Shown piece by piece: positions 13,376 to 30,820 of a stretch of DNA of 64,000 nucleotides (positions are counted from its first letter, which is position 1; each line of letters opens with the position of its first letter). A program made the position numbers and the translations under genes. Below the pieces are notes generated by a model that saw only the letters and a list, made by a program, of their open reading frames with translations, searched no databases and had not been told where the DNA came from. The stretch covers positions 124,001 through 188,000 of the forward strand of contig NZ_CANMRL010000004.1 in NCBI RefSeq assembly GCF_947500255.1. Reading direction: 5' to 3'. Source of the stretch: an uncultured Psychroserpens sp. Lineage in GTDB: Bacteria > Bacteroidota > Bacteroidia > Flavobacteriales > Flavobacteriaceae.

Positions 13376-13753
13376 TTAATTTTCCATATAGTCCTGCCAT
13401 TTTACTAATACATATTTAGCTACACTTCCTTCTTCTTTTTTTAAAAAACCATATTCGTATACAAATAGATAAACATCTTTTTTACTGTTTTTCCAAAAAT
13501 GAGTAAAGAAACTAGAGTTGAACCCTTCTTTGTGTAAAACAGAAGCTCTTACTGTAGCTTTCCCTGCTCTATTATATTGCTTTAATATTTTACGATTCAG
13601 TTTAAGTTGATTATCCACCTTATTGTAAAACCTTGGAGCTTCAGTTTTCGATTTTTGGTACTGATAAAGGCTTTTGCAGTGTACATCACAATATTTTTTA
13701 TCTGACCTACCTACTATGATTTTTGAACAATGTAAACAAAACCTATCATTCAT
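13376..13753 (-). CDS. Small zinc-ribbon protein divergent from the recombinase
   Basis: A 125-residue basic protein. The N terminus has a zinc-binding pattern C-x2-C (FCLHCSK) and C-x3-C (YCDVHCKS). A helical middle follows (LKLNRKILKQYNRAG), then a C-terminal FFTHFWKN...YLFVYEYGFLKK segment. I recognise it as a widespread Bacteroidota hypothetical family but know no function. It starts 73 bases from the recombinase gene in the opposite direction, with a perfect palindrome between them. It could regulate or assist the recombinase, but it could equally be an unrelated flanking gene. Confidence 0.75.
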   Translation of the reverse strand: MNDRFCLHCSKIIVGRSDKKYCDVHCKSLYQYQKSKTEAPRFYNKVDNQLKLNRKILKQYNRAGKATVRASVLHKEGFNSSFFTHFWKNSKKDVYLFVYEYGFLKKEEGSVAKYVLVKWQDYMEN

Positions 13754-13759
13754 ACTATA

Positions 13760-13783
13760 CGTATATTATTCGAATAATATACG
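13760..13783. promoter_or_regulatory. 24 bp perfect palindrome between zinc-ribbon and recombinase genes
   Basis: Each half is CGTATATTATTC and its complement, with no spacer and no mismatch. It lies 7 bases from the start of the minus-strand gene and 42 bases from the recombinase start, the place for an operator controlling both. An 11 bp half-site (TCGAATAATAT) recurs at 14955-14965, just after the recombinase stop. Confidence 0.6.
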
Positions 13784-13825
13784 CATAATATCCTTTTATA
13801 TAAAACCATTAACATAAATTACAAT

Positions 13826-14953
13826 ATGAAACCTAATAAACATATTACTCTAAAGCATTTATTAATAGATAATAAAAAGTGTATTGGTTTACAATTTAAT
13901 TCTGATGAAGTGTTGAATAGTTTAATTAAAAACTTAAAGAATTTAGAGTGGAGCAATAATCATGGTATGTTTTATTTACCAAATAGCAAGTACAATCTAG
14001 ACTCTATTTTTTCATTATTCAAAGGTGTCGCATGGGTAAATACTAACTACTTTTTTGATAAATCCAATTCTAAAAATCTTGATGAAAAATTTGATTTGCA
14101 ATGGTTCAGAAAGAGAAAAAAATCTAATAACTATAAAACTTGCCCAGAATCGTTCTTAAATAAACTCGAAATAAAACGCTATGCCAATAATACGGTTAGA
14201 ACATATGTATCCTGTTTTGAACGATTTATAAATTATTATCATGATAAAAATATTGAAAGCTTAAACGAAACAGATGTTCGTGCATATATAAGAACTTTAA
14301 TTCAAAACAATTGGTCTAATTCATACATTAATCAGAGTATCAATAGTATAAAATTTTACTACGAAATAGTGTTAGGTATGCCAAATAGGTTCTATAAGAT
14401 TGAGCGTCCTAGAAAAGAGAAAAAATTGCCAACTGTATTATCACCTTCTGAAGCAAAAGCACTTATTAATGCTACAAACAATATAAAACATAGATGCATA
14501 GTTTCTCTCTTATATTCTGCAGGATTAAGACGAAGTGAACTTATAAATCTTAAACCTACTGACATTGATAGTAAACGAATGCTTATTAAGATAAATGATG
14601 CTAAGGGGAAGAAAGATAGATTAACGCTTTTAGCACAATCTACCTTAAAGGATCTTAGGGCATACTACAAAGAATTTAGACCAAAAAACTATTTATTTGA
14701 GGGCCAAAAAAACGAAAAATATAGTGCAACTAGTATTGCAAAAATTATCGCAAATGCAGTTATAAAAACACGAATTAAAAAGCACGTTACTGCTCATACT
14801 CTTAGACATAGTTTTGCTACACACCTTTTAGAAAACGGCACTGACTTGAGACACATACAATTATTATTGGGGCACAGTTCTACGAAAACAACAGAAATTT
14901 ACACTCATGTTGCATCAAACAATTTTATTTCTATTAAAAATCCATTAGATTAG
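13826..14953 (+). CDS. Tyrosine recombinase of the integron-like cassette system
   Basis: A 375-residue protein. Residues 1-110 are an unusual N-terminal region. The SAM-like core-binding domain follows (about 115-195, YANNTVRTYVSCFERFINYY), then the catalytic domain. Catalytic residues visible are Arg in SAGLRRSELI, Lys in GKKDR, HTLRHS (H-x-x-R), LGHSS (His) and the nucleophile in YTHV. The end, KNPLD, is XerC/IntI-like. Between KKDR and HTLRHS I see no extra roughly 20-residue helix of the kind that defines classical IntI. The gene is followed within 67 bases by the first cassette junction and points toward the array, unlike most integrons. Cassette excision/insertion activity is inferred from position. 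Confidence 0.85.
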   Translation: MKPNKHITLKHLLIDNKKCIGLQFNSDEVLNSLIKNLKNLEWSNNHGMFYLPNSKYNLDSIFSLFKGVAWVNTNYFFDKSNSKNLDEKFDLQWFRKRKKSNNYKTCPESFLNKLEIKRYANNTVRTYVSCFERFINYYHDKNIESLNETDVRAYIRTLIQNNWSNSYINQSINSIKFYYEIVLGMPNRFYKIERPRKEKKLPTVLSPSEAKALINATNNIKHRCIVSLLYSAGLRRSELINLKPTDIDSKRMLIKINDAKGKKDRLTLLAQSTLKDLRAYYKEFRPKNYLFEGQKNEKYSATSIAKIIANAVIKTRIKKHVTAHTLRHSFATHLLENGTDLRHIQLLLGHSSTKTTEIYTHVASNNFISIKNPLD

Positions 14954-15026
14954 CTCGAATAATATGTACATTTAGTGATACAAATATAGTGGGTATAAAA
15001 ACAATACGTTTATCCATTTGTTGTGC
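14954..15026 (+). other. attI-like recombination region
   Basis: A non-coding stretch between the recombinase stop and the first cassette. The junction GTTGTGC (15020-15026) fits GTTRRRY with one deviation, and what follows (GTTGTGCTT) is the reverse complement of the start of the first cassette's attC (AAGCACAAC at 15831). It contains the half-palindrome TCGAATAATAT (14955-14965). TACATTTA at 14967 is one base from a Bacteroidota -7 box and is a candidate array promoter. No ATACACG arm is present, so it differs from the attC sites, as expected of attI. Confidence 0.6.
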
Positions 15027-15089
15027 TTCATTATTCCTCACTCAATCGGAATTAAATAATTATACTAACTTTCGGGAAACAACTAACCA

Positions 15090-15824
15090 ATGATTAAATT
15101 CTATAGAAAAATCAGACAAAACTTACTAATGGAAAATAAAACTGGAAAGTATTTTAAATATGCAATTGGTGAAATTGTTCTTGTTGTTATAGGAATTCTC
15201 ATTGCATTACAGATTAATAATTGGAATGAAAACAGAAAAAAAGAAACTCTAAAAAACGAATATAAAACAGCCTTGATTAACGATTACACAAAAGATACGA
15301 TTCAAATTAATGCTCGTCTTTTAAGAAATAATCTCAGAATTGAAAGGATTAACTCAATTGGTGATAGTATTGAAAATGGGCATTTTAATAATCTAGAAAG
15401 TTATTATAAACTCTATAATAATGAATTTGTTGGAATTAGAGTCACCAATGTTTACAATACCAATAGTTTTAATTTACTCATATCTAGTGGAAAAATAGAT
15501 TTGTTCGATAAAGACCTAAGAAAAGAACTTATGGAATTAAATCGACTTCAAACAACTGAAAAAACTGTACAAAATGGCAATAAAGGTCTCCTCTTAGACT
15601 TTATGCTAAACCTTGGAAGTAAATATCCAACCATTGGAAATCCTTTAGATAATAATGCTACATACCAACTCTTGTGGAAAAATGCAAAAGTAAATGATCT
15701 GCCAAAAGATATAGTGAATCATTTGATACAAGAGCGTTACACCATTTCAAGGTATATAGAATTAACAGAGAATGTTTTGCAACAAACCGAATTGGTTTTG
15801 AATCTTTTGGATTCTAACAACTAA
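15090..15824 (+). CDS. Cassette 1: DUF6090-like single-pass membrane protein
   Basis: A 244-residue protein. The start region MIKFYRKIRQNLL, then GKYFKYAIGEIVLVVIGILIALQINNWNENRK, is the conserved N terminus of a Bacteroidota family (DUF6090) with one membrane helix at residues about 27-45. The rest is a helical extracytoplasmic domain. An internal Met at residue 14 is a possible alternative start. It is the only gene of the first cassette (15020-15956), directly after the attI-like region. Function is unknown; related genes are common as orphans in this phylum. Confidence 0.75.
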   Translation: MIKFYRKIRQNLLMENKTGKYFKYAIGEIVLVVIGILIALQINNWNENRKKETLKNEYKTALINDYTKDTIQINARLLRNNLRIERINSIGDSIENGHFNNLESYYKLYNNEFVGIRVTNVYNTNSFNLLISSGKIDLFDKDLRKELMELNRLQTTEKTVQNGNKGLLLDFMLNLGSKYPTIGNPLDNNATYQLLWKNAKVNDLPKDIVNHLIQERYTISRYIELTENVLQQTELVLNLLDSNN

Positions 15825-15831
15825 TAACGAA

Positions 15832-15965
15832 AGCACAACAACGTGTATAATCAATGCTAACCTTCTACTCCAATTAAAATTTATATCTTTAAACAACTGA
15901 TTTGCTACAACCTTAAATCCTGCGGATTCTAGGTCGCACAAATCATACACGAACACGTTGTGCTT
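15832..15965 (+). repeat. attC-like site 1 (type A)
   Basis: Left boxes AGCACAAC + AACGTGTAT, right boxes ATACACGAACAC + GTTGTGCTT, about 134 bp, with a central hairpin AATCCTGCGGATT. The left/right outer stems pair with unequal spacers (AA versus AACAC), giving the extrahelical bases expected of attC. Confidence 0.8.
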
Positions 15966-15988
15966 AATGCAAAAAAAACCGAACTGAA

Positions 15989-16741
15989 TTGATATTTAGA
16001 CCATTGAAATACGAAAAATATGCTCAAAAAGCGGTTGATAAACTTCAAGAAAGTCAACCTGAATTTCGGACAAAATTTGACACGGATAATTACGATAATT
16101 GGTTTTATAATCAATCCAGCGAAACATTAAGATTATATAATAATGACAAAGAAATTTATTTCAAATATATTCCAGTTGGAACATTTTCGCTGAATACTAA
16201 TAGCTGGATGTGGGCTTGGGCGAATGAAGACTCTGTTGAACCAAGAAAATTTCGGACTTTAAAAATTAAAGAATTTGGAGAAAAAAAGAATTATGAAAAT
16301 CTAACCAAATCGCACTTTTGCGGAGATAAATATACAGGTTGGGAATTAACAGCAATTGTTTTCGATATAATTGGCGGAATTGGAACTTATCGAGTGATTT
16401 CTGAACATTTAGAAAAGTATTTTCTACTGACCGAACAAATAACAAAAGAAGAAGCTGAAAAAATTGAGAGTGAATTAATTGAGTGTAGTGTTCACGGAAA
16501 AATAAGGAAAGCATTTATTTGCCAGCATTTGAATACTAAACAAAAAACTGGATTTGAAGAAGCTTTTGAGACTTATCGAGGAATGGAATTGGGCGAAGAA
16601 GATGATTTCCAAGCTTGGTGTTCCGAATGCGAAAAAGAGCGAATAAAAACTGATGGTTGGAATGAAGAATCTATGGAGTTCGCAAAAATAAAATTAGTAT
16701 GCGAAAGATGCTATTTTGAAATTAAGGAAATAAACGTATGA
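15989..16741 (+). CDS. Cassette 2: hypothetical protein, DUF6882-like with Cys-rich C terminus
   Basis: A protein of 250 residues from a TTG start at 15989, preceded by a stop 3 codons upstream; no ATG fits without losing the conserved N terminus. The middle reads VGTFSLNTNSWMWAWAN, a pattern I associate with DUF6882. The C-terminal part has SVHGKIRKAFICQHL and two CxxC pairs (CSEC, CERC), a likely zinc ribbon. No signal or membrane segment. Function unknown. Its cassette spans 15957-16876. Confidence 0.65.
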   Translation: MIFRPLKYEKYAQKAVDKLQESQPEFRTKFDTDNYDNWFYNQSSETLRLYNNDKEIYFKYIPVGTFSLNTNSWMWAWANEDSVEPRKFRTLKIKEFGEKKNYENLTKSHFCGDKYTGWELTAIVFDIIGGIGTYRVISEHLEKYFLLTEQITKEEAEKIESELIECSVHGKIRKAFICQHLNTKQKTGFEEAFETYRGMELGEEDDFQAWCSECEKERIKTDGWNEESMEFAKIKLVCERCYFEIKEINV

Positions 16742-16753
16742 ATAAAGCACTAA

Positions 16754-16884
16754 AGCACAACAACGTGTATAGTTCATTGCTTCTGATTTTCCTTTCGGAA
16801 AATCCTCGCTACTGAACAATGGGTTCGCTCCTATTTGCTATCTTAGTGCTAACGCAACGAAGCCATACACGAACACGTTAGCCA
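16754..16884 (+). repeat. attC-like site 2 (type A)
   Basis: AGCACAAC + AACGTGTAT at the left, ATACACGAACAC + GTTAGCC at the right. The central hairpin is ATTTTCCTTTCGGAAAAT. The right outer box belongs to the next cassette and accordingly differs from the left one. Confidence 0.8.
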
Positions 16885-16893
16885 CCATAAAAT

Positions 16894-17385
16894 ATGCTAC
16901 TCATTCACTGGACAAAACATAATAACACAAAGGATATCCTGAAAAACGGGATTCATCCAGTTAGAAGAAAGTCTATGTCTTCCGAAGGCGATGATATTAA
17001 AGGAATATGGTGCTATCCCTTTACCAGGAACAAAACGCTGAATAACACATGGAAATCAAATCTCAAAGTTTGGCGTCAAGACCTGACCAATTTCAACGGC
17101 TTCGTTTTTAGACTGGAAGAATCTGATTTTCCAATATATGCTGGTTCCTTTGTGGGAATTGCAATGTTTCCCGAACAGTCAACTTTTAATTCTTACGAGG
17201 AATTCTTAAAAATCTTTGGGGAAGAGTTTTCTCCTGTAAGCATCGCATTTGAAAGAAATAAAGTAACTCTTGAAACGGGTACAATAGATTATGGTGATTT
17301 CGAAATAATTATTCCGAATCGCATCGAACCAAAAAGGATAAAAAAGGTAATTAAGGACAGAAACACGTTGGCTAACAAAAGCTAA
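16894..17385 (+). CDS. Cassette 3: hypothetical protein ending inside its attC
   Basis: A 163-residue soluble protein. It starts MLLIHWTKHNNTKDILKNGI, a pattern (His near the N terminus, then a helix ending in NGI.P) that resembles ADP-ribosyltransferase-fold proteins, but the remaining ART residues are not evident, so I do not assign it. The region KGIWCYPFTRNKTLNNTWKSNL is distinctive. The last codons (RNTLANKS) are read from the attC itself. Its cassette runs 16877-17431. Confidence 0.65.
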   Translation: MLLIHWTKHNNTKDILKNGIHPVRRKSMSSEGDDIKGIWCYPFTRNKTLNNTWKSNLKVWRQDLTNFNGFVFRLEESDFPIYAGSFVGIAMFPEQSTFNSYEEFLKIFGEEFSPVSIAFERNKVTLETGTIDYGDFEIIIPNRIEPKRIKKVIKDRNTLANKS

Positions 17386-17438
17386 AAAATCATAGCCACC
17401 TCACGGGATGGCAACGCATTTTAGCCAAACCGTTGTAA
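17369..17438 (+). repeat. attC-like site 3 (short type)
   Basis: Only about 70 bp: TGGCTAAC + AAAA + GCTAAAA at the left and TTTTAGC + CAAACC + GTTGTAA at the right. The GCTAAAA/TTTTAGC boxes replace the CGTGTAT/ATACACG boxes of the long sites. Size and spacers are close to a short classical attC. Confidence 0.7.
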
Positions 17439-18143
17439 CACATTTGACCAAATCAAGAAAATGCAGGAATTCAAACATTGGAAAGAGTTTATTAACCGAG
17501 TTTTAATCGACAGCGGAAAATTTGAAAATCCAAAAACTGAATTTAAAGGAGATGCGGAAACAGAAACTTTCAAATCAATTGTGGAAAATTCTCTGACTGA
17601 AATTCGAGTTGGATATTTAAAGGACAATTTACTTATCTATTTACATATTTTCAATCCGACAGTTCCAGGATATAATAAGTATGTGGAAGGAGAATATTTT
17701 TATAAACACGATTTTAGTGAAGATGGAGAAACTTACGGAAGTCCATCATTAGAATTTAATGAACAGAATCGGAATGGAATTCTCTCAATTCTTGAAAGTG
17801 GATTAAAAGGAAAAGAAGTTCAATTCGTGAAAAACAACATAATTCTGAAATCGAAACTTTACATTTCACAATATGACACGAACTTTAACTATTCTTATGA
17901 CTTTACAAAGAGAGGTTTTTGGAACAAAATATTCGGACAGAAAATTGACAAAATGGACGGAATTGAAAAGAGAGAAATAGAGTTGAGTACAATATTTAGT
18001 GGAATAAAAAACGTGTTACAACAACGTGTATAATTAATTGCTTTGGCAAGTGCTTATTTGGAAAATTCCTTCGGAATTTTCTCGGGTTCGTTTTTGTTTA
18101 CTAAATTAGTTGCTTAAACACGCAACTAACCATACACAACAAC
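17432..18143 (+). repeat. Cassette 4, first copy of a 712 bp tandem duplicate
   Basis: By eye the segment is identical to 18144-18855, including the gene and the whole attC. Both copies start GTTGTAACAC and end with the attC that opens GTGTTACAAC. Confidence 0.9.
17461..18033 (+). CDS. Cassette 4: hypothetical protein, copy 1
   Basis: A soluble 190-residue protein of no family I recognise. It begins MQEFKHWKEFINRVL; the middle is rich in beta-prone stretches (TEIRVGYLKDNLLIYLHIF, VQFVKNNIILKSKLYISQYD); the end is helical. The final residues NVLQQRV and the TAA stop are read from the left arm of the attC. The next cassette encodes the identical protein. Cassette limits are 17432-18143. Confidence 0.7.
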   Translation: MQEFKHWKEFINRVLIDSGKFENPKTEFKGDAETETFKSIVENSLTEIRVGYLKDNLLIYLHIFNPTVPGYNKYVEGEYFYKHDFSEDGETYGSPSLEFNEQNRNGILSILESGLKGKEVQFVKNNIILKSKLYISQYDTNFNYSYDFTKRGFWNKIFGQKIDKMDGIEKREIELSTIFSGIKNVLQQRV

Positions 18144-18153
18144 GTTGTAACAC
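18014..18153 (+). repeat. attC-like site 4 (type A)
   Basis: GTTACAAC + AACGTGTAT left, ATACACAACAAC + GTTGTAAC right, with hairpin GAAAATTCCTTCGGAATTTTC. It is one of two sites whose right spacer reads ACAACAAC rather than ACGAACAC, a variant repeated in the duplicate. Confidence 0.8.
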
Positions 18154-18855
18154 ATTTGACCAAATCAAGAAAATGCAGGAATTCAAACATTGGAAAGAGT
18201 TTATTAACCGAGTTTTAATCGACAGCGGAAAATTTGAAAATCCAAAAACTGAATTTAAAGGAGATGCGGAAACAGAAACTTTCAAATCAATTGTGGAAAA
18301 TTCTCTGACTGAAATTCGAGTTGGATATTTAAAGGACAATTTACTTATCTATTTACATATTTTCAATCCGACAGTTCCAGGATATAATAAGTATGTGGAA
18401 GGAGAATATTTTTATAAACACGATTTTAGTGAAGATGGAGAAACTTACGGAAGTCCATCATTAGAATTTAATGAACAGAATCGGAATGGAATTCTCTCAA
18501 TTCTTGAAAGTGGATTAAAAGGAAAAGAAGTTCAATTCGTGAAAAACAACATAATTCTGAAATCGAAACTTTACATTTCACAATATGACACGAACTTTAA
18601 CTATTCTTATGACTTTACAAAGAGAGGTTTTTGGAACAAAATATTCGGACAGAAAATTGACAAAATGGACGGAATTGAAAAGAGAGAAATAGAGTTGAGT
18701 ACAATATTTAGTGGAATAAAAAACGTGTTACAACAACGTGTATAATTAATTGCTTTGGCAAGTGCTTATTTGGAAAATTCCTTCGGAATTTTCTCGGGTT
18801 CGTTTTTGTTTACTAAATTAGTTGCTTAAACACGCAACTAACCATACACAACAAC
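18144..18855 (+). repeat. Cassette 5, second copy of the 712 bp tandem duplicate
   Basis: Same sequence as 17432-18143 shifted by exactly 712 bases. The junction falls at G of GTTGTAA, the predicted recombination point, which favours cassette insertion over a random duplication. Confidence 0.9.
18173..18745 (+). CDS. Cassette 5: hypothetical protein, copy 2
   Basis: The 190-residue product is identical to that of 17461-18033. I chose the ATG at 18173, matching copy 1. A longer in-frame start at 18110 begins inside the preceding attC and would add 21 residues translated from repeat sequence. The lack of any visible difference between the copies implies a recent event. Function unknown. Confidence 0.7.
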   Translation: MQEFKHWKEFINRVLIDSGKFENPKTEFKGDAETETFKSIVENSLTEIRVGYLKDNLLIYLHIFNPTVPGYNKYVEGEYFYKHDFSEDGETYGSPSLEFNEQNRNGILSILESGLKGKEVQFVKNNIILKSKLYISQYDTNFNYSYDFTKRGFWNKIFGQKIDKMDGIEKREIELSTIFSGIKNVLQQRV

Positions 18856-18862
18856 GTTGGGC
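18726..18862 (+). repeat. attC-like site 5 (type A)
   Basis: Same as site 4 through 18855, but the right outer box is GTTGGGC from the following cassette instead of GTTGTAA. The switch of sequence exactly at the G is direct evidence for the junction point. Confidence 0.8.
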
Positions 18863-18883
18863 ATAATTTAACGAAATCGAAAT

Positions 18884-19633
18884 ATGGGATGGAAATCATC
18901 TTTAATAATAATTGAAAATAAAGAAAACTTTGCGGACGAAAGCGCAATATTAAAAGCTATCGGAAAATCGGAATATGAATTTGACCGTGAATCGACTCTT
19001 GATGAATGTATCTATCCGAACGACAAGTCTATAAATATTGGATATTTTAATGGTAATATAATTATTTGCGATGATTATCAGCTGACAACAAACAGTCTTG
19101 AAAGAGCAGACGAACTAATCTTAACAAAAGAGGAACAGAAACTTGTTGACTTATTTCCGACATCTGAAATTGTAACTGTCGCTTGTCATAGTGCTGTTAA
19201 TTATCACGGATATTCCCTAATAGAAAGTGGAGTTAAAAAAAGACTTAAAATAATCACTTCCGATACACCAAGAATTGAGTTTGGAGAGAGAATAGAGGAA
19301 GAAATTAAAATCTATCAAAAATCTTATTCTAAAGACAATCAGAATTTCTGGAAAGATGATTATGACCCGGAAGAAGACCTTACAGAAGACCAATTAATGG
19401 AAGACTTTACTTTTGGTGTTGCCAAAAGAAGATTAGGAGTATTACTTGACCATTCGGACGGAGATGAATTAATGGAACAGATAATATTTAAGAAATTTAA
19501 GAATCCAAATCAAACGTCTGAAGTAACGGAATCAATAAAAGTTGAGAAAAAAGCTAAATGGATTAAATATGGAATAATTATTCTGATTTTAATAATTTGG
19601 CAAATATTGAAACGAACAGTTTTTAAGAATTAA
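18884..19633 (+). CDS. Cassette 6: hypothetical C-tail-anchored protein
   Basis: A 249-residue protein that starts MGWKSSLIIIENKENF. A soluble domain contains NIGYFNGNIIICDDYQL and a TVACHSAVNYHGYSLIE segment. After an acidic region (DDYDPEEDLTEDQLMED) it ends in one membrane helix (WIKYGIIILILIIWQIL) and a basic tail. I recognise no function. The cassette spans 18856-19768 and its ends agree over ten bases (GTTGGGCATA / TATGCCCAAC). Confidence 0.65.
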   Translation: MGWKSSLIIIENKENFADESAILKAIGKSEYEFDRESTLDECIYPNDKSINIGYFNGNIIICDDYQLTTNSLERADELILTKEEQKLVDLFPTSEIVTVACHSAVNYHGYSLIESGVKKRLKIITSDTPRIEFGERIEEEIKIYQKSYSKDNQNFWKDDYDPEEDLTEDQLMEDFTFGVAKRRLGVLLDHSDGDELMEQIIFKKFKNPNQTSEVTESIKVEKKAKWIKYGIIILILIIWQILKRTVFKN

Positions 19634-19638
19634 AAAAC

Positions 19639-19775
19639 TATGCCCAACACCGTGTATAATTAATTGCTCGAGTTTTTCTGTGCCAATCGGAAAATTCTCC
19701 GAATTTCCCTCAGATTCGTCCCTCTTTTGCTATCTTTAGTCGCAGAGCAACTAACCATACACAAACACGTTAGGC
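19639..19775 (+). repeat. attC-like site 6 (type A)
   Basis: TGCCCAAC + ACCGTGTAT left, ATACACAAACAC + GTTAGGC right. Hairpin TCGGAAAATTCTCCGA in the middle. GTTAGGC fits the classical GTTRRRY core exactly. Confidence 0.8.
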
Positions 19776-19788
19776 ACAATACCCAAAA

Positions 19789-20598
19789 ATGACAACAGAA
19801 CATAATTTATATAAGTGTTTAAGTGATGCTTTTAATGAAGCTGGTTACAAAACAATATCGGACGAGCAATCCTTTAATTTTCTACCATTAAATCTTAATA
19901 TTGAACCAGAAGTTATTGATATTAAAAGTTTTGAAAGTCAACAATATTCTTGTAGTGTAACATTAACTTTTAACAACCCTGTTAAATTTGAAAATAGCAT
20001 AACTGAATATTCTATGGGAATAGGTAGTTCCGAATACGATGCTATCAAAAGTGCTTTTCAAAGGTGGATAGACTGCGATTTTCCACCTATTCACGACTAT
20101 ATCGGCTCTGGACACTCTGAATTAGGAAAAAAAATAGAAAGTGCTAGCTATTCTGGGGAGTTGAATAAATATTTAGGTTGGGATATCTATTTTGGTCCAT
20201 TATTATAGTGTAAAGAAGTAAACAACACTCTTGAAACCAAAATCAACGAAAAAAATAGTAGTTTAATTCTTCAAAAATTATTTCAAGCTCTGACAGATAA
20301 TATTCTAGGGAGACCTGGAACATATTTCATAAGGAATTTTATGTCTATTTCATCCGATAATAAAATTGATATTGACTGTAGACTGAATGGAGTAGATTGG
20401 ACTCTTGGCAAACAATATCTGACTGAATATATTAAGAGCTTGCCCAAACAAAATCAAATATTTTTTTTAAAACAAAGTATACTTCTGAGTTCAAAACCTA
20501 TTGAAGAGATAAAATCAGATACAATACTAAAAAAACTAGATGGAGAATTAGCAAAGATAAATAACAATAAAAAGTGGTGGGAAATATGGAAAAAGTAA
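19789..20598 (+). pseudogene. Cassette 7: gene split by an in-frame TAG (DUF6348-like)
   Basis: One frame runs from ATG 19789 to TAA 20596-20598 and is broken only by TAG at 20206-20208. The first part (139 residues) contains YSCSVTLTFNNP and EYSMGIGSSEYDAIKSAF, which resembles DUF6348. The second part continues with 44 codons lacking any stop before an internal ATG at 20341 and contains IDCRLNGVDWTLGKQYL, a plausible rest of the same fold. It is either a recent nonsense mutation, a readthrough, or two adjacent products (19789-20208 and 20341-20598). I favour a broken gene. Confidence 0.6.
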
Positions 20599-20599
20599 A

Positions 20600-20792
20600 G
20601 TGCCTAACAATGGCTATAATTAATACGGGGTGTGGTACTTACTAAACTTAGTACTTTTAACAAAGTCCGCCAAATCTTTTGATTTGGCTTTAAAATGAAA
20701 AGATAAAACAAAATAAAAAGTTTTGGCAAAGTGCTTAATCGAAAGTTTGCTACTTTTAATTCCCGTACTAACCATAGCCTGAACATTGTACC
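20600..20792 (+). repeat. attC-like site 7 (type B, long)
   Basis: GTGCCTAAC + AATGGCTATA at the left pairs with CATAGCC + TGAAC + ATTGTACC at the right, about 190 bp. The inner boxes (GGCTATA/TATAGCC) differ from type A. The right core reads ATT rather than GTT. The middle holds an inverted repeat AGCCAAATC... around 20670-20690. Confidence 0.7.
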
Positions 20793-20819
20793 TAATACAA
20801 GAAAACCTTCGCTACTAAA

Positions 20820-21404: not shown

Positions 21405-21414
21405 CCAAAAAGTA

Positions 21415-22496: not shown

Positions 22497-22559
22497 TCTT
22501 AAAACACTTCCTACTACTCTGTTCTCATCTTTGCATCATTAACAAAAAAACATGTAAAT

Positions 22560-23432: not shown

Positions 23433-23442
23433 ATCATTAATA

Positions 23443-24204: not shown

Positions 24205-24233
24205 TAACATATGGTTTAATATGGAGATAAGCC

Positions 24234-24367
24234 AACCTACAACAACGTGTATAAGTAATAGCGATTTGAGTTTTAATTCAAATCGCTATTCTATTTTATT
24301 TTGTAAATTACTTTGTGAAAAGTAGTGCACTAAAACTCGCTAATACTCATACACGAACACGTTGGCA
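24234..24367 (+). repeat. attC-like site 9 (type A)
   Basis: AACCTACAAC + AACGTGTAT left, ATACACGAACAC + GTTGGCA right. The middle forms a perfect arm pair ATAGCGATTTGA / TCAAATCGCTAT. The left outer box agrees with the cassette start at 21543 only over GTTGTA/TACAAC, so this cassette may be a fusion of two. Confidence 0.75.
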
Positions 24368-24394
24368 TTCATTAACCAGACTTCCAAAATAAAA

Positions 24395-24961
24395 ATGAAA
24401 GAACTGAATACACTGAAAGAATTTAGGAAAGCAAAGAATTATACCCAAGAAGAATTAGCCAAACAATCTGGTATATCTATTAGAACCATTCAGCGTATTG
24501 AAAAAGGATTGACCAAAGGCAGTCCTCATACTTTAAAGGCATTAGCAAAAACACTAGATGTTGAAAGTTCAGATATTATAGTTTTAGCAGATGAAAATAA
24601 CACTGCTAATAATGATTCCCGTAAATTAAAACTGATGAATTTCAGTATTCTATCTGTCTTACTTATCCCTTTTGGTAATATTATTCTTCCAACCATTTTT
24701 TTTCTTCTTCATAAATCGAATACACATGTAAATAGTATAGGACGAAGAATACTTAGTATTCAAATAATAAGTACTTTTCTTCTATGTGGTATAGCAATCA
24801 GCTTATTTTTTATTATTGGTCGCGGAGGTGGAGCTATTCCATTACCTGTACCCATAATTTACTTTATGTATACATCTGTAAATATCATTATTGTAATTCA
24901 TACATCTATAGCCATAGACAAGAATGAACAAATCTTAAAATTCTTTCCAAACATAGTATAG
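24395..24961 (+). CDS. Cassette 10: XRE-family regulator with membrane domain
   Basis: Start placed at the ATG 24395; an in-frame TTG at 24362 lies in the cassette core box. An N-terminal helix-turn-helix of the HTH_3 type (RKAKNYTQEELAKQSGISIRTIQRIEKG) is followed by a three- or four-helix membrane domain (about residues 85-175) resembling DUF4870-like tails. Such membrane-bound XRE proteins are frequent in flavobacteria. The next gene starts 101 bases later in the same cassette. Confidence 0.82.
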   Translation: MKELNTLKEFRKAKNYTQEELAKQSGISIRTIQRIEKGLTKGSPHTLKALAKTLDVESSDIIVLADENNTANNDSRKLKLMNFSILSVLLIPFGNIILPTIFFLLHKSNTHVNSIGRRILSIQIISTFLLCGIAISLFFIIGRGGGAIPLPVPIIYFMYTSVNIIIVIHTSIAIDKNEQILKFFPNIV

Positions 24962-25062
24962 CAAGGCAATTGTCATAAAAATGTCATAAAAACTGCTTAT
25001 GACTTTTTCGCCAATAAAATCCTTATTCGAATATTTTTGAGGTCAATCAAAACAAATCGAAT

Positions 25063-26832
25063 ATGAAATTAAAAACAATCATTTTTGCAACACTAGTTTT
25101 AATATCTAGTCTTAGTTTTTCTCAAAATTTAGAAAAAAGCAAGCTTGATGAATTTTTTAATTCGCTCGAAAAGCGAAATGAAGCTATGGGCAGTATTTCA
25201 ATTTCCAAAAACGGAAAACTTATCTATTCTAAAGCCATAGGCTATAAAACTATAGAAGGCAAAAACAGAATTAATGCTAATACTGATACACATTATAGAA
25301 TTTGGTCTATTACAAAAACATATACTGCGGTAATGATTTTTCAATTGATAGAAGAAGGTAGATTGTCGTTAGAAACCACCTTAGATACGTTCTATCCTCT
25401 ACTACCAAATGCAGAAAGCATAACCATAGAGCATATGCTTTCTCATAAAAGTGGTTTATTCGATTATGTGAACGATACAGATGAGGAAATAAGCTTGCAT
25501 GGTATATCTAGCAAGGATACCGTTGCCGCCATTATTGCCAAACTCAAACCTAATTTTAAACCAGGCGAACAATTTAGTTATAGTAATACAAACTATCTAT
25601 TTTTAGGATATATCATTGAACTATTAGATAAATCAACTTATGAAATAGCATTGTCAAAAAGAATTTCGGCTAAAGCAAATCTCAACAACACATATTTTGG
25701 CACACAAACAATAAGCAAAATCAATAATGTTGCTGAAACGTACCAGTACGACAATGATTGGAAAACCGTATCTGAAGAAGCAAATTATACTAATCATCTT
25801 GCTACTGCCGATGGTGGTATTGTATCTACTATAGAAGATATGACTTTATTCATTGATGCATTGTTTGATGGAAGGCTAGTTTCGAAAAAAAGTCTCAATA
25901 AAATGCTAGAAGGTGAAGGTTTTTATAGGCTTGGACTCATGAAAACTCAGTTCGAAAGCAGTGAAGGTTTTGGTCATACTGGTGGTTGGATATCCGAGTC
26001 TAGTCTATTTCATTACCCAAAAGATAACTTGTCAATTGCTTATGCAACCAATGGTATAGTGCTTAGAAAAGAAGATATATTAAATGATGTATTAAAAATT
26101 ATTCATGGTAAACCGTTTACAATTTCTATGAATAGAAATTTGCAAGCACTTCTAATTTTTGGAATTGGATTGCTATTCTTTCTACTTGGTAAGTTAAAAT
26201 TCAATGATTATGTAAATACAAAATATTCACTTTATGTAGGATACCTAATCGCTGTGCTATTTTGGTTAGGAACAATGTTCTCTGGGTTTTTATATGGTAA
26301 TGATTATAGCCATATCAGAGATGGTATCCCACTATTAGATTCTTTTTACTCAGGTTCGGGTACTTTTAATGCAGGTATACAATTCACAATTGCTATGCTT
26401 TTTATTCCTTTTATCTATAGCATTTATAAAATTTGCAAGCAACAAAGCATTAATATACTTCCATTAATACCATTGGTTTTTATTCCTATTAATATGATAG
26501 GATCGTCACTATTCCCTTTCCCAAATCAGCTATTCCCTATTTTTGCCAACAGTATTATATTAAGCTTTCTAGGACCATTATTAGCTATTATTTTTTGGAG
26601 AGCAAAAAGATTATCTAAAATTAGAATACAGGCTGTAATTAGTTTCTTTTTGATGATGGTTTCCATAGGTTTTATGATTAGTAGATCTTCTATTCCAGAA
26701 TTTGTCCATATGTATTGGGGTATCATTCAGAGGTTATTGTTTTTAGGATGGACCTCTTGGATTGTATTCATGAGTATACATTTTACAAAAGTCGTAAAAC
26801 TTGGTAATGAAAGTAATCAGATAAACAAATAA
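25063..26832 (+). CDS. Cassette 10: serine hydrolase with C-terminal membrane domain
   Basis: A 589-residue protein. Signal peptide (ends SFSQ), then a beta-lactamase-related domain with SITK (S82, K85), YSN (about 173) and GHTGGW (about 307). From about residue 362 six hydrophobic segments follow. Proteins with this build are listed as serine hydrolases or penicillin-binding-like esterases. At 2.6 kb for two genes, the cassette (24361-26962) is far larger than typical integron cassettes. Confidence 0.85.
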   Translation: MKLKTIIFATLVLISSLSFSQNLEKSKLDEFFNSLEKRNEAMGSISISKNGKLIYSKAIGYKTIEGKNRINANTDTHYRIWSITKTYTAVMIFQLIEEGRLSLETTLDTFYPLLPNAESITIEHMLSHKSGLFDYVNDTDEEISLHGISSKDTVAAIIAKLKPNFKPGEQFSYSNTNYLFLGYIIELLDKSTYEIALSKRISAKANLNNTYFGTQTISKINNVAETYQYDNDWKTVSEEANYTNHLATADGGIVSTIEDMTLFIDALFDGRLVSKKSLNKMLEGEGFYRLGLMKTQFESSEGFGHTGGWISESSLFHYPKDNLSIAYATNGIVLRKEDILNDVLKIIHGKPFTISMNRNLQALLIFGIGLLFFLLGKLKFNDYVNTKYSLYVGYLIAVLFWLGTMFSGFLYGNDYSHIRDGIPLLDSFYSGSGTFNAGIQFTIAMLFIPFIYSIYKICKQQSINILPLIPLVFIPINMIGSSLFPFPNQLFPIFANSIILSFLGPLLAIIFWRAKRLSKIRIQAVISFFLMMVSIGFMISRSSIPEFVHMYWGIIQRLLFLGWTSWIVFMSIHFTKVVKLGNESNQINK

Positions 26833-26835
26833 CGA

Positions 26836-26970
26836 AATGCCAACAACGTGTATAGTTAATAGCTCATTCTGTGTATACTCGGAAAATCCTACGGATTTTC
26901 CTCTGGGTCGTTTTCTTTTACTAACTTAGTCCTAGCCTACGCAACTAACCATACACGAACACGTTGTAGC
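26836..26970 (+). repeat. attC-like site 10 (type A)
   Basis: AATGCCAAC + AACGTGTAT left, ATACACGAACAC + GTTGTAGC right, with hairpin GGAAAATCCTACGGATTTTCC in the middle; the left box mirrors the cassette start GTTGGCATT. Confidence 0.8.
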
Positions 26971-27069
26971 CAATTTGAGGATGAGCTATCATGGTAACTC
27001 AAAAATATTTTGAAAAGACATTGTATGCAATCTCTATCACTTAATACAATCAGAGAAATAACATTTTAG

Positions 27070-27909
27070 TCATTTAGTATCATGAAAAAAATAATTAACA
27101 CCAATACCAGCCGTTAAATAATGGTTCGTTTGATGTGTTGCTTTTGGCATATAATATGATTTCCAAATTAGGTTAGCAGGCGCTTTTTCATCTAATAGAT
27201 TAATTGATAAATCAAACGCTATTTTCATTTTATCAACTTCATCTTCTCCCATACTCATAAATAGATTAGAACTTAAAGTAGGGTTATCTTTTAGAAAATC
27301 ATCTAATTTCTTTACAAAAGCATTTTCTTCTCTCCAAAGAGCTGGGCTCAATGCAATTCTAGTATTAAAAAGATTAGGTTTTACAGTTAGCGAATAAAGT
27401 ACCAATAACCCTTCACGAGAATGTCCTACAATAGTTCTTTGATTATTTGTGTTATAGTTTTTCTCAACTAATGATATTACTTCACTTTCTAGATACTCTA
27501 AAAAACTATCTGCTTTACCTAGTGGAGAATTAGTTTCATCTAAATCTTGCTTTAAGAAAGGTGGTGTTAAATCGCGTTGCCTTGTCTTTTGGTCAATACT
27601 TGGTATTCCAACGACTATGACTTCAGGAATATTGCCAACACGAGAAAGTAAATCAGCGTCTGCTGCAATAGTATAGGTTAGAGAATTACCTCCTAATACG
27701 TACACTACTGGATATTGTTTCTCATTTGTATAGTTTCTAGGTTTTTTCACAATTAACTCTCTCGTCTCTTGAAGTACTATTGATTCTATCTCATAGGTGT
27801 CATATGTTGATGGTGTTTCTGATGTATCTAGAATAATGAATGTAGCAAAAACTGACATTAATGATGCTATACACGCAATCAGTATCGTATAAATTGTTCT
27901 TTTTTTCAT
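27070..27909 (-). CDS. Cassette 11: esterase-fold alpha/beta hydrolase, antisense to the array
   Basis: A 279-residue protein with an N-terminal membrane anchor (TILIACIASLMSVFATFII) and an esterase D/Fes-like alpha/beta hydrolase domain. The nucleophile elbow is GHSREG (Ser164), with Glu in place of the usual second Gly region; HQTNHY near the end may supply the His. It is the only clearly antisense gene in the array and needs its own promoter to the right of 27909. The cassette limits are 26963-28169. Confidence 0.8.
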   Translation of the reverse strand: MKKRTIYTILIACIASLMSVFATFIILDTSETPSTYDTYEIESIVLQETRELIVKKPRNYTNEKQYPVVYVLGGNSLTYTIAADADLLSRVGNIPEVIVVGIPSIDQKTRQRDLTPPFLKQDLDETNSPLGKADSFLEYLESEVISLVEKNYNTNNQRTIVGHSREGLLVLYSLTVKPNLFNTRIALSPALWREENAFVKKLDDFLKDNPTLSSNLFMSMGEDEVDKMKIAFDLSINLLDEKAPANLIWKSYYMPKATHQTNHYLTAGIGVNYFFHDTK

Positions 27910-28045
27910 TTTTATTCATTTCTAATTACTTGTTAGAAGAATCAAATAACAAAAAGGTTACAATTAATAGTACTTTTATTTAATGAATGGCATTTTTAGT
28001 ATAAAACAATATCTTACATAAGGACAAGATTTAATGTAAAAAAAC

Positions 28046-28178
28046 TGGCAACAACAACGTGTATAGTTAATAGTGTTTAAAGATGGTTCGGGAAATTCTA
28101 CCGAATTTCCGCACTCTTCGTTCTTTTTTGCTAACTTACCTCCTAACACTAATAACCATACACGAACACGTTGTAGCC
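28046..28178 (+). repeat. attC-like site 11 (type A)
   Basis: TGGCAACAAC + AACGTGTAT left, ATACACGAACAC + GTTGTAGCC right, hairpin GGGAAATTCTACCGAATTTCC. The outer match to its cassette start (GTTGTAGCCAATT against GTTGTTGCCAGTT) has two mismatches. Confidence 0.8.
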
Positions 28179-28206
28179 AATTGACAATCAAGACTTAAAA
28201 ATCATA

Positions 28207-28250
28207 TTCTACATTTGTAGAAGTTAAATAAAACCTCTACGTTTGTAGAG
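28207..28250 (+). promoter_or_regulatory. Pair of BlaI/MecI-like operators before the cassette 12 gene
   Basis: Two palindromes, TTCTACATTTGTAGAA (28207-28222) and CTCTACGTTTGTAGAG (28235-28250), share the TAC...GTA core of BlaI/MecI/CopY operators. Their centres are 28 bases apart and end 17 bases before the ATG. No blaI-like gene is present in the window. Confidence 0.5.
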
Positions 28251-28267
28251 TTAAAATATCATTATAA

Positions 28268-29173
28268 ATGAAAAAAGTCTTACTTCTATTTATTATTCTG
28301 CTTGGATTAACTTCTTGTAAAGAAAATACAGAAAAACAAACAACATCTGATGAAACATCAAATACTATTGAAAATTCTGCAGAAATGACAGAAGAGCAAA
28401 AGGATTTGAAAAAGAGCGCGATACCAATTAATAGCTTATCAAAGTTAAGCAACAAGATATATGATGAAATTGCAAATTTTGAAATATTAATGGTTGGAGA
28501 AATGCATGGGACAAAAGAGCCCGCCGAATTTGTCTATGGTCTATGTGACCTTATAACTGAATCTGAGAAAAAAGTTGTCTTAGCCTTAGAAATCCGTGCT
28601 TCACAGATGGAAAACTTATCAAATGACATGTCAATTGCCCAATTAAAAGAATTGGATTTCTTTCGCAGAGAAAATTTTGATGGTAGAAATGGTGTATCAA
28701 TGCTTGATTTAATCTACAATAGCATCCAAAATGAAAAAATCATTCTAAAATTTATTGATAATTCTTACCCGTCTTCAACCAGAGATTCATCCATGTACAT
28801 GGAAATACGTAACATCCATAGTAAACATCCAAACACCAAAATAGTTACTCTAACTGGAAATGTACATAATTCTTTTACACCCCTTTTTGACAAAGTAAGG
28901 ATTGGAGGTTACTTGTTAAATGATTCTGTTAATTTTGATTCTAAAAAAATCATGTCCATTAATCATGTATTTAGTGAAGGCAGCATGTTAAATAATGACG
29001 GTACAGGGTTAAAAATTAGCACTATTGAAAGAAAGGAAAATATTTATAATACTACCTTATCCCATGAAATGTTTTTATATAAGAAATTTCCTGAAGAACA
29101 AAATCGATGTACACATATCCTATATACTGATAAAGTAACGGCTTCAGGAATAGTTGAAAAAGATGATAGGTAA
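28268..29173 (+). CDS. Cassette 12: ChaN/erythromycin-esterase-like lipoprotein
   Basis: A 301-residue lipoprotein (LLGLTSC anchor). Motifs VGEMHGTKE (about 76-84), LALEIR and LTGNVHNSF have the Glu/His arrangement of the ChaN/TraB/EreA clan of haem-binding or metal-dependent hydrolases. Length fits ChaN-like proteins. The paired operators just upstream suggest it is inducible by a BlaI-type repressor encoded elsewhere. The cassette runs 28170-29403. Exact activity is not known. Confidence 0.7.
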   Translation: MKKVLLLFIILLGLTSCKENTEKQTTSDETSNTIENSAEMTEEQKDLKKSAIPINSLSKLSNKIYDEIANFEILMVGEMHGTKEPAEFVYGLCDLITESEKKVVLALEIRASQMENLSNDMSIAQLKELDFFRRENFDGRNGVSMLDLIYNSIQNEKIILKFIDNSYPSSTRDSSMYMEIRNIHSKHPNTKIVTLTGNVHNSFTPLFDKVRIGGYLLNDSVNFDSKKIMSINHVFSEGSMLNNDGTGLKISTIERKENIYNTTLSHEMFLYKKFPEEQNRCTHILYTDKVTASGIVEKDDR

Positions 29174-29271
29174 TGATAATAAATCTATCTTTTACATAAA
29201 AATGGACTTGGCAAAACTAACTCAAGAACATAGAATTACAAACAGAAAATCTAATAAATCAAATAAAATAA

Positions 29272-29412
29272 CTGGCCACAACAACGTGTATAATTAATTG
29301 CTTAATGGTGTTTAAAGATTATCACGGAAATTCTGCCGAATTTCCTTCACGCAGTTTCTTTTTGCTAACTTAGCGCTAACAGCAACTAACCATACACGAA
29401 CACGTTAGCAAC
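29272..29412 (+). repeat. attC-like site 12 (type A)
   Basis: CTGGCCACAAC + AACGTGTAT left, ATACACGAACAC + GTTAGCAAC right, hairpin GGAAATTCTGCCGAATTTCC. Left box mirrors the cassette start GTTGTAGCCAATT with two transitions. Confidence 0.8.
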
Positions 29413-29423
29413 AATATAAAAAA

Positions 29424-30263
29424 ATGAAGATAACCACATTGACACTTCTGTTACTTCTATGTTTCTCTTGTAAAGACAGAAGTCAAATTGCAAAGACTGA
29501 AACACAAAAAACTGATAATAATAAAATAGTAAAACCTGAATTTCAGTCAATTATTGATTCTTCTGATGTTAAAGGTTCAATATTAATTTACGATTTAAAC
29601 AAGGACAAATACTATTCAAATGACTTTGAATGGTCAAACACGGGGAATTTACCAGCATCTACATTCAAAATCGCAAATTCAATTATCGGACTTGAAACTG
29701 GCGTAATTGAAAATGATAGTGCCATATTTAAATGGGATGGGGAAAAGAAATGGTTAAAAAATTGGGAACAAGACCTAATACTTAGAGATGCTTTTCAATT
29801 TTCTTGTGTTCATTGTTATCAAGAGGTTGCAAGAAAAATTGGTTCAAAAACAATGAACGGTTATATATCAAAACTTAACTATGGAAATCTAGAAATTGAC
29901 TCTACTAACATCGATAAATTTTGGTTAGAAGGAGACTCCAGAATAAGTCAAATGCAACAAATCGACTTCCTGAAAAGGTTTTACAATTTTGAACTTCCTA
30001 TTTCCAAAAGAACTGAGAGTATAATGCGAAATATTATGCTCATTGAAGAAACTGACCAATATAAACTTAGTGGAAAATCTGGTTTATCAAATAATAACGG
30101 AAAATACAATGGTTGGTTTGTTGGGTTTGTTGAATTTAAAAACGATACATACTTATTTGCCACAAATCTGGAGCCTAAAAAAGAGTTTGATTTCAATTCT
30201 TTTATTAAAAAAAGGTTGGATTTAACTCTTCTCGGTCTTAGAAAATTGAATGTTCTGAAATAA
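29424..30263 (+). CDS. Cassette 13: class D (OXA-type) beta-lactamase family protein
   Basis: A 279-residue lipoprotein (LLLLLCFSC anchor) with the full class D motif set: STFK (79-82), S-C-V at 127-129, YGN (153-155), FWLEG near 166-170, KSG (218-220) and GWFVGF after it. The order and spacing are those of OXA enzymes that acylate beta-lactams; Lys82 would be the carboxylated base. It starts 20 bases after the cassette start at 29404, as in resistance integrons. Whether it confers resistance or acts as a BlaR-like sensor cannot be told, though no sensor membrane part is present. Confidence 0.88.
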   Translation: MKITTLTLLLLLCFSCKDRSQIAKTETQKTDNNKIVKPEFQSIIDSSDVKGSILIYDLNKDKYYSNDFEWSNTGNLPASTFKIANSIIGLETGVIENDSAIFKWDGEKKWLKNWEQDLILRDAFQFSCVHCYQEVARKIGSKTMNGYISKLNYGNLEIDSTNIDKFWLEGDSRISQMQQIDFLKRFYNFELPISKRTESIMRNIMLIEETDQYKLSGKSGLSNNNGKYNGWFVGFVEFKNDTYLFATNLEPKKEFDFNSFIKKRLDLTLLGLRKLNVLK

Positions 30264-30267
30264 ATAC

Positions 30268-30294
30268 TGGTGCTAACAATGGCTATAGTTAATT
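30268..30294 (+). repeat. Half attC-like site 13 (type B)
   Basis: TGGTGCTAAC + AATGGCTATA, the left arm of a type-B site, mirroring the cassette start GTTAGCAACA. It runs directly into the ATG at 30295, so its right arm has been lost. Confidence 0.65.
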
Positions 30295-30687
30295 ATGAAA
30301 AAATTCTTAATCTATTTTATATTATTTAATTCATTATTTGCAATTGCGCAAACTGAAAGAGATGTACTAATAAATGACATTCAAAATTCTATTAAAGCGT
30401 ATAACGAATCTGACTTTGAAACCTTATTAAAATATTTTCCAAAGTTTGTTTTTGACAATATTTCAAAAGAAGAATTATTGAAAGAATTATCAAAAAATCA
30501 TAAAATAAAAACTATAGATATCTCTGAAATCAAAATTGATACAATTATGACAATTGATTCTGTAAAATATGCAAAATTTCAAATAGGATCCAATACGCCA
30601 TCATATGGTATAAAAAATAATAGCAATTGGACTTTTATTGACGCAAACGAGAAAACAAAAAAGTATATCCCAATAGAAATTAGATAA
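30295..30687 (+). CDS. Cassette 14: small secreted hypothetical protein
   Basis: A 130-residue protein with a signal peptide (MKKFLIYFILFNSLFAIAQ). The mature part has NDIQNSIKAYNESDFETLLKYFP, reminiscent of NTF2-like snoaL folds, but without diagnostic residues. Its ATG abuts the truncated attC, and a decayed attC follows, so it is probably the last, partly eroded cassette. Function unknown. Confidence 0.6.
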   Translation: MKKFLIYFILFNSLFAIAQTERDVLINDIQNSIKAYNESDFETLLKYFPKFVFDNISKEELLKELSKNHKIKTIDISEIKIDTIMTIDSVKYAKFQIGSNTPSYGIKNNSNWTFIDANEKTKKYIPIEIR

Positions 30688-30708
30688 TCTTTTAATATAA
30701 TTAACTAC

Positions 30709-30820
30709 ACACAACAACATGAATCATTAATAGTGTTATTGATGGCTTAGGAAATTCTACCGAATTCCTACACTCTTGGTTCTTTTTTGCTAACCTATTG
30801 CCTCAACACAACACACCAAG
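30709..30820 (+). repeat. Decayed attC-like site at the end of the array
   Basis: The stretch CACAACAACATG, GGAAATTCTACCGAATTCC and TTCTTTTTTGCTAAC follows attC site 11 closely, but the CGTGTAT and ATACACG arms are mutated. It marks the distal end of the array. Confidence 0.65.

Follow-up and report, generated by a model that had tools for sequence, protein, structure and literature searches.

The 64-kb stretch of DNA analyzed here, referred to as the window, is located on contig C4 of a 4.0-Mb Psychroserpens genome comprising 13 contigs; Psychroserpens luteolus (Flavobacteriaceae) was the closest named relative found. The window harbors an integron-type array (positions 13376-30830) composed of a tyrosine recombinase gene, an attI region and attC sites, of which 12 are full, one is a half site and one, at the end, is decayed. 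Based on its sequence features, this locus very probably represents an integron-type gene-capture platform with an XerA/XerC-like, non-IntI tyrosine recombinase.

One line of evidence for this interpretation is circle closure. In integrons, each cassette begins with an R' box and ends with an R'' box that derive from the same circle. Accordingly, the six bases preceding AAC were compared with the six bases following GTT, either at the cassette's own start or at the adjacent junction. For the 12 distinct cassettes of the window (anchors set by hand, cassette 5 left out as an exact duplicate), 66 of 72 bases were complementary to the own start vs. 32 of 66 for the adjacent junction. Permutations yielded a mean of 30.3, and none out of 200,000 reached 66.

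A scripted version of the test was applied to 55 sources, namely the window and fetched loci, by means of an attC hidden Markov model (HMM) trained on the 47 sites of alignment A2. Of 507 consecutive pairs, 418 closed perfectly with the own start and 21 did so at the adjacent junction; the summed own-start score of 2803 compares with a mean of 1299 and a maximum of 1400 in 2000 within-locus shuffles. This set comprised 635 HMM matches, of which 567 were anchored and 68 were dropped for lack of AACA or GTT at the expected place; pairs more than 4 kb or less than 150 bp apart were excluded. In the HMM rows, R'' is accompanied by the adjacent R' and not by the own start. Closure is therefore not built into the model, for which 47 of the closure-tested sites also served as training set. 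In a second locus set (19 of 163 matches dropped without AACA or GTT in place), closure of at least 5/6 was found for 98 of 114 own starts vs. 7 of 114 adjacent junctions. None of the sources in either locus set had sites on both strands, and one-strand arrays of at least 80 sites were found in two genomes. Judged by these comparisons, the cassettes close on themselves, as expected of an integron in the functional sense, and the cassette logic proposed earlier for this locus by reference to established integrons is thereby shown statistically.

Array layout, attC sites and attI

The first-pass annotation of the window described a tyrosine recombinase followed by an attI-like junction and about 14 cassettes within positions 13376-30820. 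Recombinase, junction and array are present. The cassettes, all in one orientation from 15021 to approximately 30295, number 13, the last of which ends in a half site, and the open reading frame (ORF) at 13376-13753 is a conserved partner gene instead of cargo. The features of the locus are as follows:

13376-13753, minus strand: partner gene, 125 amino acids (aa), CxxC...CxxxC, Zn-ribbon-like, no Pfam family
13826-14953, plus strand: tyrosine recombinase, proposed cassette integrase, 375 aa, N-terminal extension, SAM_4 and catalytic domains (PF13495 and PF00589)
14954-15026, plus strand: attI region, crossover GTT at 15020-15022, palindrome not intact
15021-15957, plus strand: cassette 1, DUF6090 protein (15090-15824), attC 15831-15965
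15958-16877, plus strand: cassette 2, DUF6882 protein (15989-16741), attC 16753-16885
16878-17432, plus strand: cassette 3, orphan protein of 163 aa (16894-17385), short third-type attC 17368-17440
17433-18144, plus strand: cassette 4, orphan protein of 190 aa (17461-18033), attC 18014-18152
18145-18856, plus strand: cassette 5, exact copy of cassette 4, attC 18726-18864
18857-19769, plus strand: cassette 6, DUF6928-like protein (18884-19633, under the Pfam cut-off), attC 19640-19777
19770-20785, plus strand: cassette 7, DUF6348 homology over ORFs 19789-20208 and 20341-20598, second-type attC 20600-20793
20786-21543, plus strand: cassette 8, CHAP-domain protein (20820-21404), attC 21417-21551
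21544-24361, plus strand: cassette 9, AraC-type regulator, short-chain dehydrogenase and DUF1330 protein, attC 24235-24369, closure 4/6
24362-26963, plus strand: cassette 10, helix-turn-helix/DUF4870 protein and PF00144 serine hydrolase, attC 26836-26971
26964-28170, plus strand: cassette 11, esterase-like gene on the minus strand (27070-27909), attC 28047-28178
28171-29404, plus strand: cassette 12, 301-aa protein without Pfam match (28268-29173), attC 29274-29412
29405-30295, plus strand: cassette 13, class D beta-lactamase homologue (29424-30263), attC half site 30268-30295
30707-30830, plus strand: decayed terminal attC (covariance model R1, E=0.04)

The single-orientation layout noted before holds for sites and cassettes and fails for one internal gene, the one in cassette 11, which runs opposite to the array. 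The class D beta-lactamase reported as cargo was recognized by model NF012161 with 263.9 bits (cut-off 250). Cassettes 4 and 5 constitute an exact 712-bp tandem duplication. As the DUF6348 homology in cassette 7 is split between two ORFs (19789-20598), the corresponding gene is probably broken. Within the window, an Rfam scan returned a single tRNA and nothing else, and PADLOC found no defence model among ten window proteins.

All three attC subtypes distinguished in the first-pass annotation were recovered, including the type-A boxes CGTGTAT/ATACACG. Type A accounts for ten of the 12 full sites; these ten measure approximately 117-124 nt from AAC to GTT, with NNNNAAC...GTTNNNN as outer boxes and the above motifs as inner boxes. 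At E<=0.0005, covariance model R1 recovered all of the 12 full sites but one. Nine of the 11 recovered sites belonged to its training alignment, and another is identical to one of these nine. The second-type site was missed by this model and was read by eye, and a weak match (19.4 bits, E=0.01) at 9273-9393 falls outside the array. The HMM replaced relaxed pair finders, which produced many false sites. It found no match in 1.615 Mb of reversed sequence of the same loci, indicating that the attC sites are not due to chance.

Regarding site structure, 97.4% of the arm cells were paired as compared to 87.8% after shuffling, the structure being taken from the same alignment. Paired changes in the arms were counted in 47 cells vs. 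17.3 in shuffled alignments (0/500 shuffles), 44 of the 47 lying within the L-box helix. Folding of four sites on both strands (eight folds) gave z-scores from -3.2 to -6.1. R'', L'', L' and R' boxes with paired arms, as characteristic of attC sites, are therefore indicated by the alignments.

Comparison with a 60-kb stretch of P. luteolus XSD401 revealed collinearity in pieces, with matches to window positions 1-3701 (95.4% identity), 5408-8221 (94.3%) and 45936-63639 (95.3%). The segment comprising partner gene, recombinase and attI (13373-15024) is 89.7% identical, the partner itself 88%, and the segment at the decayed terminal attC (30776-30926) 84.5% identical. Homology ends just past the GTTGT of attI, with few differences before this point. 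From the attI crossover to 30776, solely attC-sized repeats match, and no cassette body is common to both. These findings suggest that attI, adjoining the integrase gene, is the insertion point, and show that array content varies between relatives. Window positions 3702-5407, 8222-13372 and 30927-45935 had no match in the compared XSD401 stretch; the array is thus not the sole difference from P. luteolus. The last of these stretches (30927-45936, approximately 15 kb) ends beside a tRNA gene (45941-46013, minus strand) and contains a SAM_5-type recombinase gene at 31236-32534; it is probably a separate integrative element inserted just past the array.

Furthermore, a palindrome ending at most 9 nt before GTT, just past the recombinase stop codon, was found in 28 of 40 orthologous loci, as compared to a mean of 0.2 and at most one of 40 loci in 20 shuffles.

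The recombinase and its divergent partner

The catalytic residues R235, K260, H324, R327, H350 and Y359 are present in all 42 aligned relatives of the recombinase. Its score with the IntI model TIGR02249 was 202.8 bits, below the cut-off of 265. For five array-side recombinases from four flavobacterial genomes, the TIGR02249 match was split, extending to model positions 176-193 and resuming from 238-240 of 315, whereas the positive controls IntI1 (two copies), IntI2 and Vibrio IntI matched positions 1-315 end to end with 410-522 bits. Likewise, the distance from the first catalytic Arg to the Arg of HxxR is 92-93 residues in the flavobacterial proteins, compared with 134-135 residues for three IntI and 97-98 for three Xer-like proteins; it was measured in 82 of 84 flavobacterial rows, two having no readable motif, and the GxR with a spacing nearest to 95 was taken. 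No protein exceeded the TIGR02249 cut-off in the 249 sampled family genomes, in a search whose own controls gave no signal and whose separate positive controls matched. By these alignments, the recombinase lacks the IntI-specific insertion and is not an IntI.

Among curated models, NF040815 (XerA_Arch) fitted best, with 226.1 bits just above its cut-off of 220. Moreover, the alignments with the XerA structures 4a8e and 5hxy are unbroken, covering residues 107-366 and 110-363, respectively. An N-terminal extension of approximately 100 residues precedes this part. The predicted recombinase structure (predicted local distance difference test (pLDDT) 82.4, predicted template modeling score (pTM) 0.59) can be read, from its secondary structure, as a mixed alpha/beta domain (residues 1-77), a low-confidence linker, and core-binding and catalytic domains.

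Full-length recombinases of at least 52% identity were collected by protein search from the 249 family genomes, and the 40 included in the tree form one branch with a Shimodaira-Hasegawa-like approximate likelihood ratio test (SH-aLRT) value of 99 obtained by a quick method. Array recombinases branched apart from IntI, again with an SH-aLRT of 99 and subject to a long-branch warning, and three Xer-like rows formed a branch of their own (SH-aLRT 99, quick tree with long-branch warnings). The proteins of loci L126 (54% identity) and L130 (50%) were kept out of the orthologue counts; they match from approximately residue 110 on and branch outside the clade. A PF00589 search of the genome returned three recombinases; the other two (302 and 296 aa) branch apart and, by size and branching, are presumably Xer proteins. 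Housekeeping XerC/XerD was accordingly rejected as an identity for the array recombinase, which in this quick tree does not group with the genome's own Xer-like recombinases. As the PF00589 search missed the recombinase at 31236-32534, this list is not exhaustive. Over residues 143-375, an identity of 52.6% was found for plasmid recombinases of Acinetobacter and for one protein annotated as TnpF on a plasmid from an uncultured bacterium.

In 36 of 42 orthologous loci, the recombinase gene is preceded, at a distance of 66-164 bp, by a divergent homologue of the partner gene; the same arrangement exists in nine loci with more distant recombinases (83-182 bp). No PADLOC match was obtained for the partner. 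At E<=1e-5, 803 homologues were found, some of them named DUF2116 family Zn-ribbon by a source; the predicted structure has a pLDDT of 82.3 and a pTM of 0.58. No integron is known to include such a partner gene. As a guess, it may act as a regulator or as a recombination partner or factor, perhaps one that binds the attI palindrome.

Distribution of arrays and sharing of cassettes

Same-strand attC sites were found downstream of the recombinase in all 35 clade loci with at least 1.5 kb of downstream sequence, the first detected site lying 0.4-8.6 kb past the stop codon. In these 35 loci no site was present on the other strand or upstream, the upstream sequence being short in most. Upstream sites were also absent from seven loci with 15.6-18.7 kb of such sequence (three of them among the 35) and from 14 kb in P. 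luteolus. For more distant recombinases with at least 1.5 kb downstream (31 loci including L126 and L130), sites followed in 21. Locus L101 (genome G085) shows the classical integron layout, its attC array diverging from a recombinase that has no N-terminal extension.

When Bacteroidota genomes were searched with the site model, as proposed in the first-pass annotation, 219 of the 249 genomes sampled from the family gave matches at E<=1e-4 (at most 13 matches scored per genome), and 55 of the 296 sampled from the phylum did so at E<=1e-6. Among the 30 family members in the phylum sample, 17 had sites; the other 13 are from a single genus, four of whose 17 members have sites. At least five sites were present in 141 of 160 genomes with a recombinase at E<=1e-45 vs. 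42 of the 89 others (Fisher p 6e-12, for counts compiled by hand from species that are not independent). Within the source genome, five further attC clusters occur on four contigs (C1 903-907 kb, C2 251-275 kb, C2 502-504 kb, C3 348-363 kb and C7 198-216 kb), each one-stranded at E<=0.01, and no recombinase homologue was detected in these five stretches.

The loci read contain 553 closed cassette bodies. Between different genomes, 25 cassette pairs were identified (at least 75% identity over at least 60% of the longer one, up to 98.8%), not all of them independent, as some cassettes recur. They involve 18 of 49 genomes, and a similar neighboring cassette was observed in none of the 25 cases, suggesting that cassettes are shared singly. 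Cassette 2 of the window is 84.5% identical in its body to a cassette of genome G121, the recombinase of which is 38% identical. Loci L099 and L100 (genome G113) feature arrays with many near-identical cassette bodies of approximately 330 bp.

Sites were also detected on the lytic Polaribacter phage P12002L (L162, 30003-39715), with nine site-model matches at E<=0.02 on one strand and closure of at least 5/6 for five of eight consecutive pairs vs. none of eight at the adjacent junction. Several of these matches adjoin DNA methyltransferase genes. PMC9892861 lists P12002L among clusters of attC sites lacking integron integrases (CALINs) and assigns its attC a divergent direction, which differs from the one-strand matches obtained here. 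The same paper reports that the bottom strand of one of two tested attC recombined with IntI1 and the other did not; these two attC may or may not be among the nine matches obtained here.

A group II intron search with one maturase revealed three copies in the loci, the other two being 94% identical; in genome G071, the ORF at the head of the array encodes a group II intron maturase. As judged from their junctions, read by eye, all three copies lie in an attC R'' box and are oriented opposite to the cassettes, with junctions at TTGT/T in two cases and GTGT/T in one. Two abut model-found sites (L110 8535-8670 and L158 6982-7107), and the third is known from its boxes only. Corresponding coordinates are:

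L110 8661-10700, opposite to the cassettes: group II intron in attC R'' box
L158 5210-9824, opposite to the cassettes: group II intron in attC R'' box

According to PMC7923331, group IIC-attC introns use the attC bottom-strand hairpin. The intron positions observed here fit these published introns and, by analogy, provide indirect support for bottom-strand use.

Alternative explanations and relation to known integrons

For the proposed mechanism, the recombinase would excise cassettes at attC, with the folded bottom strand of the site as its probable substrate, in the form of circles closed by their own R'' and R' boxes, and the circles would be inserted at attI, just downstream of the recombinase gene. 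The adjacent recombinase would be the catalyst moving the cassettes, and cassette expression would be driven from upstream.

Several observations weigh against this interpretation. Further pair types in the attC arms were not above those in shuffled alignments (7 vs. 7.3; 448/500). Strand-specific folding, a check suggested in the first-pass annotation, favored the bottom strand in all four sites by just 0.5-5.8 kcal/mol, both strands being stable, so that strand choice is unproven. The 712-bp duplication is explicable by other routes, and the window as well as P. luteolus are among the 12 of 40 loci without the attI palindrome. Concerning adjacency, ten of the 31 loci with more distant recombinases had no downstream site, one of them with a divergent array and the others (L126, L130, L142, L145, L148, L153, L154, L156 and L157) with no site, including 5.7 and 8.0 kb searched downstream in L126 and L130, respectively. 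The 42 of 89 genomes with at least five sites and no recombinase at E<=1e-45 show that the assumption that genomes without a close recombinase have no arrays is wrong. Finally, closure of at least 5/6 was found for only eight of 30 pairs in the clusters elsewhere in the source genome, vs. one of 30 at the adjacent junction (partial-model matches left out), as expected for decaying arrays.

Three other explanations were considered. Ordinary intergenic palindromic repeats, with the recombinase as a bystander, would agree with the many genomes that have sites and no close recombinase, and with the further clusters of the source genome. Complementarity to the own start is, however, not expected of such repeats and contradicts this explanation. 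The long one-strand arrays, the homology break at attI, the singly shared cassettes, the adjacency in 35 of 35 loci and the empty reversed control also weigh against it; it is considered almost negligible in probability. The first-pass annotation named repeats found apart from recombinases and with fixed neighbors as the outcome that would turn the sites into ordinary repeats. Repeats beyond recombinases do occur, but their neighbors vary, and the recombinase-less clusters therefore resemble the CALINs of known integrons. A canonical IntI integron so far missed in Flavobacteriaceae would share the cassette logic, the GTTRRRY-like R' boxes and an attI beside the integrase, and both the TIGR02249 score and the NCBI name 'site-specific tyrosine recombinase/integron integrase' given to some homologues point in this direction. 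The missed cut-off, the match in two pieces, the shorter Arg-Arg spacing and the separate tree branches, subject to the long-branch warning, make it very improbable, and a canonical IntI acting in trans was rejected as none scored above the cut-off in the family genomes.

The array may also be an integron array whose cassettes are moved by another enzyme, for example XerC/XerD or a recombinase in trans. In favor of this, no close recombinase was detected near many of the arrays, the source genome encodes at least one further recombinase (31236-32534), and the activity of a Polaribacter phage attC with IntI1, as reported in PMC9892861, implies that attC can serve foreign enzymes. Yet the two other PF00589 recombinases are Xer-sized and branch apart, the recombinase at 31236 is encoded in a stretch missing in P. 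luteolus, a species that has an array of this kind as well, and the clade recombinase is upstream of and co-oriented with the sites in every evaluable locus, its catalytic residues being intact. An enzyme other than the adjacent recombinase is thus regarded as unlikely.

Vibrio superintegrons are characterized by one-orientation arrays, attC with R''/R' and L''/L' boxes and a GTT box, self-closing cassettes, orphan cargo and attI beside the integrase gene. Like such sedentary chromosomal integrons, the flavobacterial arrays are long in some relatives, vary in content and are accompanied by decayed recombinase-less clusters elsewhere. Unlike them, the flavobacterial integrase lacks the IntI insertion, carries an N-terminal extension and is co-oriented with the cassettes, and its loci feature a divergent Zn-ribbon-like gene and, in 28 of 40 relatives, a palindromic attI. 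The earlier statement that no classical integron with these repeats is known is in line with the enzyme not being an IntI and with the flavobacterial site model giving no significant match (best E=0.82) in one Vibrio integron. With archaeal XerA and XerC/XerD, the enzyme shares its best curated model and the one-piece structural alignment; it differs in N-terminal extension, Arg-Arg spacing, cassette arrays and attI.

In PMC9668308, Spirochaetota IntIs are described as generally being in reverse orientation. The flavobacterial loci resemble them in their unusual integrase orientation and differ in that the Spirochaetota enzymes are IntIs. The same paper defines IntI by a unique extra domain near patch III, held necessary for integron recombination, and counts Bacteroidota, without detail, among the phyla with integrons. 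As the recombinase does not possess this domain, an integron by IntI definition was rejected, and the locus is filed here as an integron by function, as judged from its sites and cassettes. A 2008 survey recorded intI genes in the Bacteroidetes/Chlorobi group (PMC2426708), and a 2022 RefSeq survey found one complete integron in Bacteroidetes proper, that of Salinibacter ruber M1 (PMC9024848). The latter is classed there in the same phylum and was found via integron-integrase profiles, whereas none of the 249 genomes of the present family contained an IntI above the cut-off. Among the matches listed in a literature search on integrons in Bacteroidota, Flavobacteriaceae and marine settings, no paper addressed these arrays by title or abstract start, bioRxiv and most subscription journals being outside the search; the available parts of PMC8565304, PMC3414803 and PMC7370490 contain nothing on them.

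An origin independent of IntI integrons is possible. With somewhat better than even probability, the loci represent a second, independently assembled integron class with an XerA-like integrase in which the IntI insertion is missing, an attC family of its own, a dedicated divergent Zn-ribbon-like partner and a palindromic attI, occurring in most sampled Flavobacteriaceae genera, with cassettes shared across genera and present on at least one phage. If this holds true, integron-type arrays would be common in one large bacterial family, as suggested by their detection in 219 of 249 sampled genomes, and IntI-based searches, which returned none of the 249 above the cut-off, would miss them. Cassette capture would then run on a recombinase without the IntI domain held to define integron integrases, and the role of the IntI insertion would become directly testable. 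Moreover, the arrays would provide a large new stock of cassette genes, represented by the 553 closed bodies, together with a new conserved partner gene and a new attI design.

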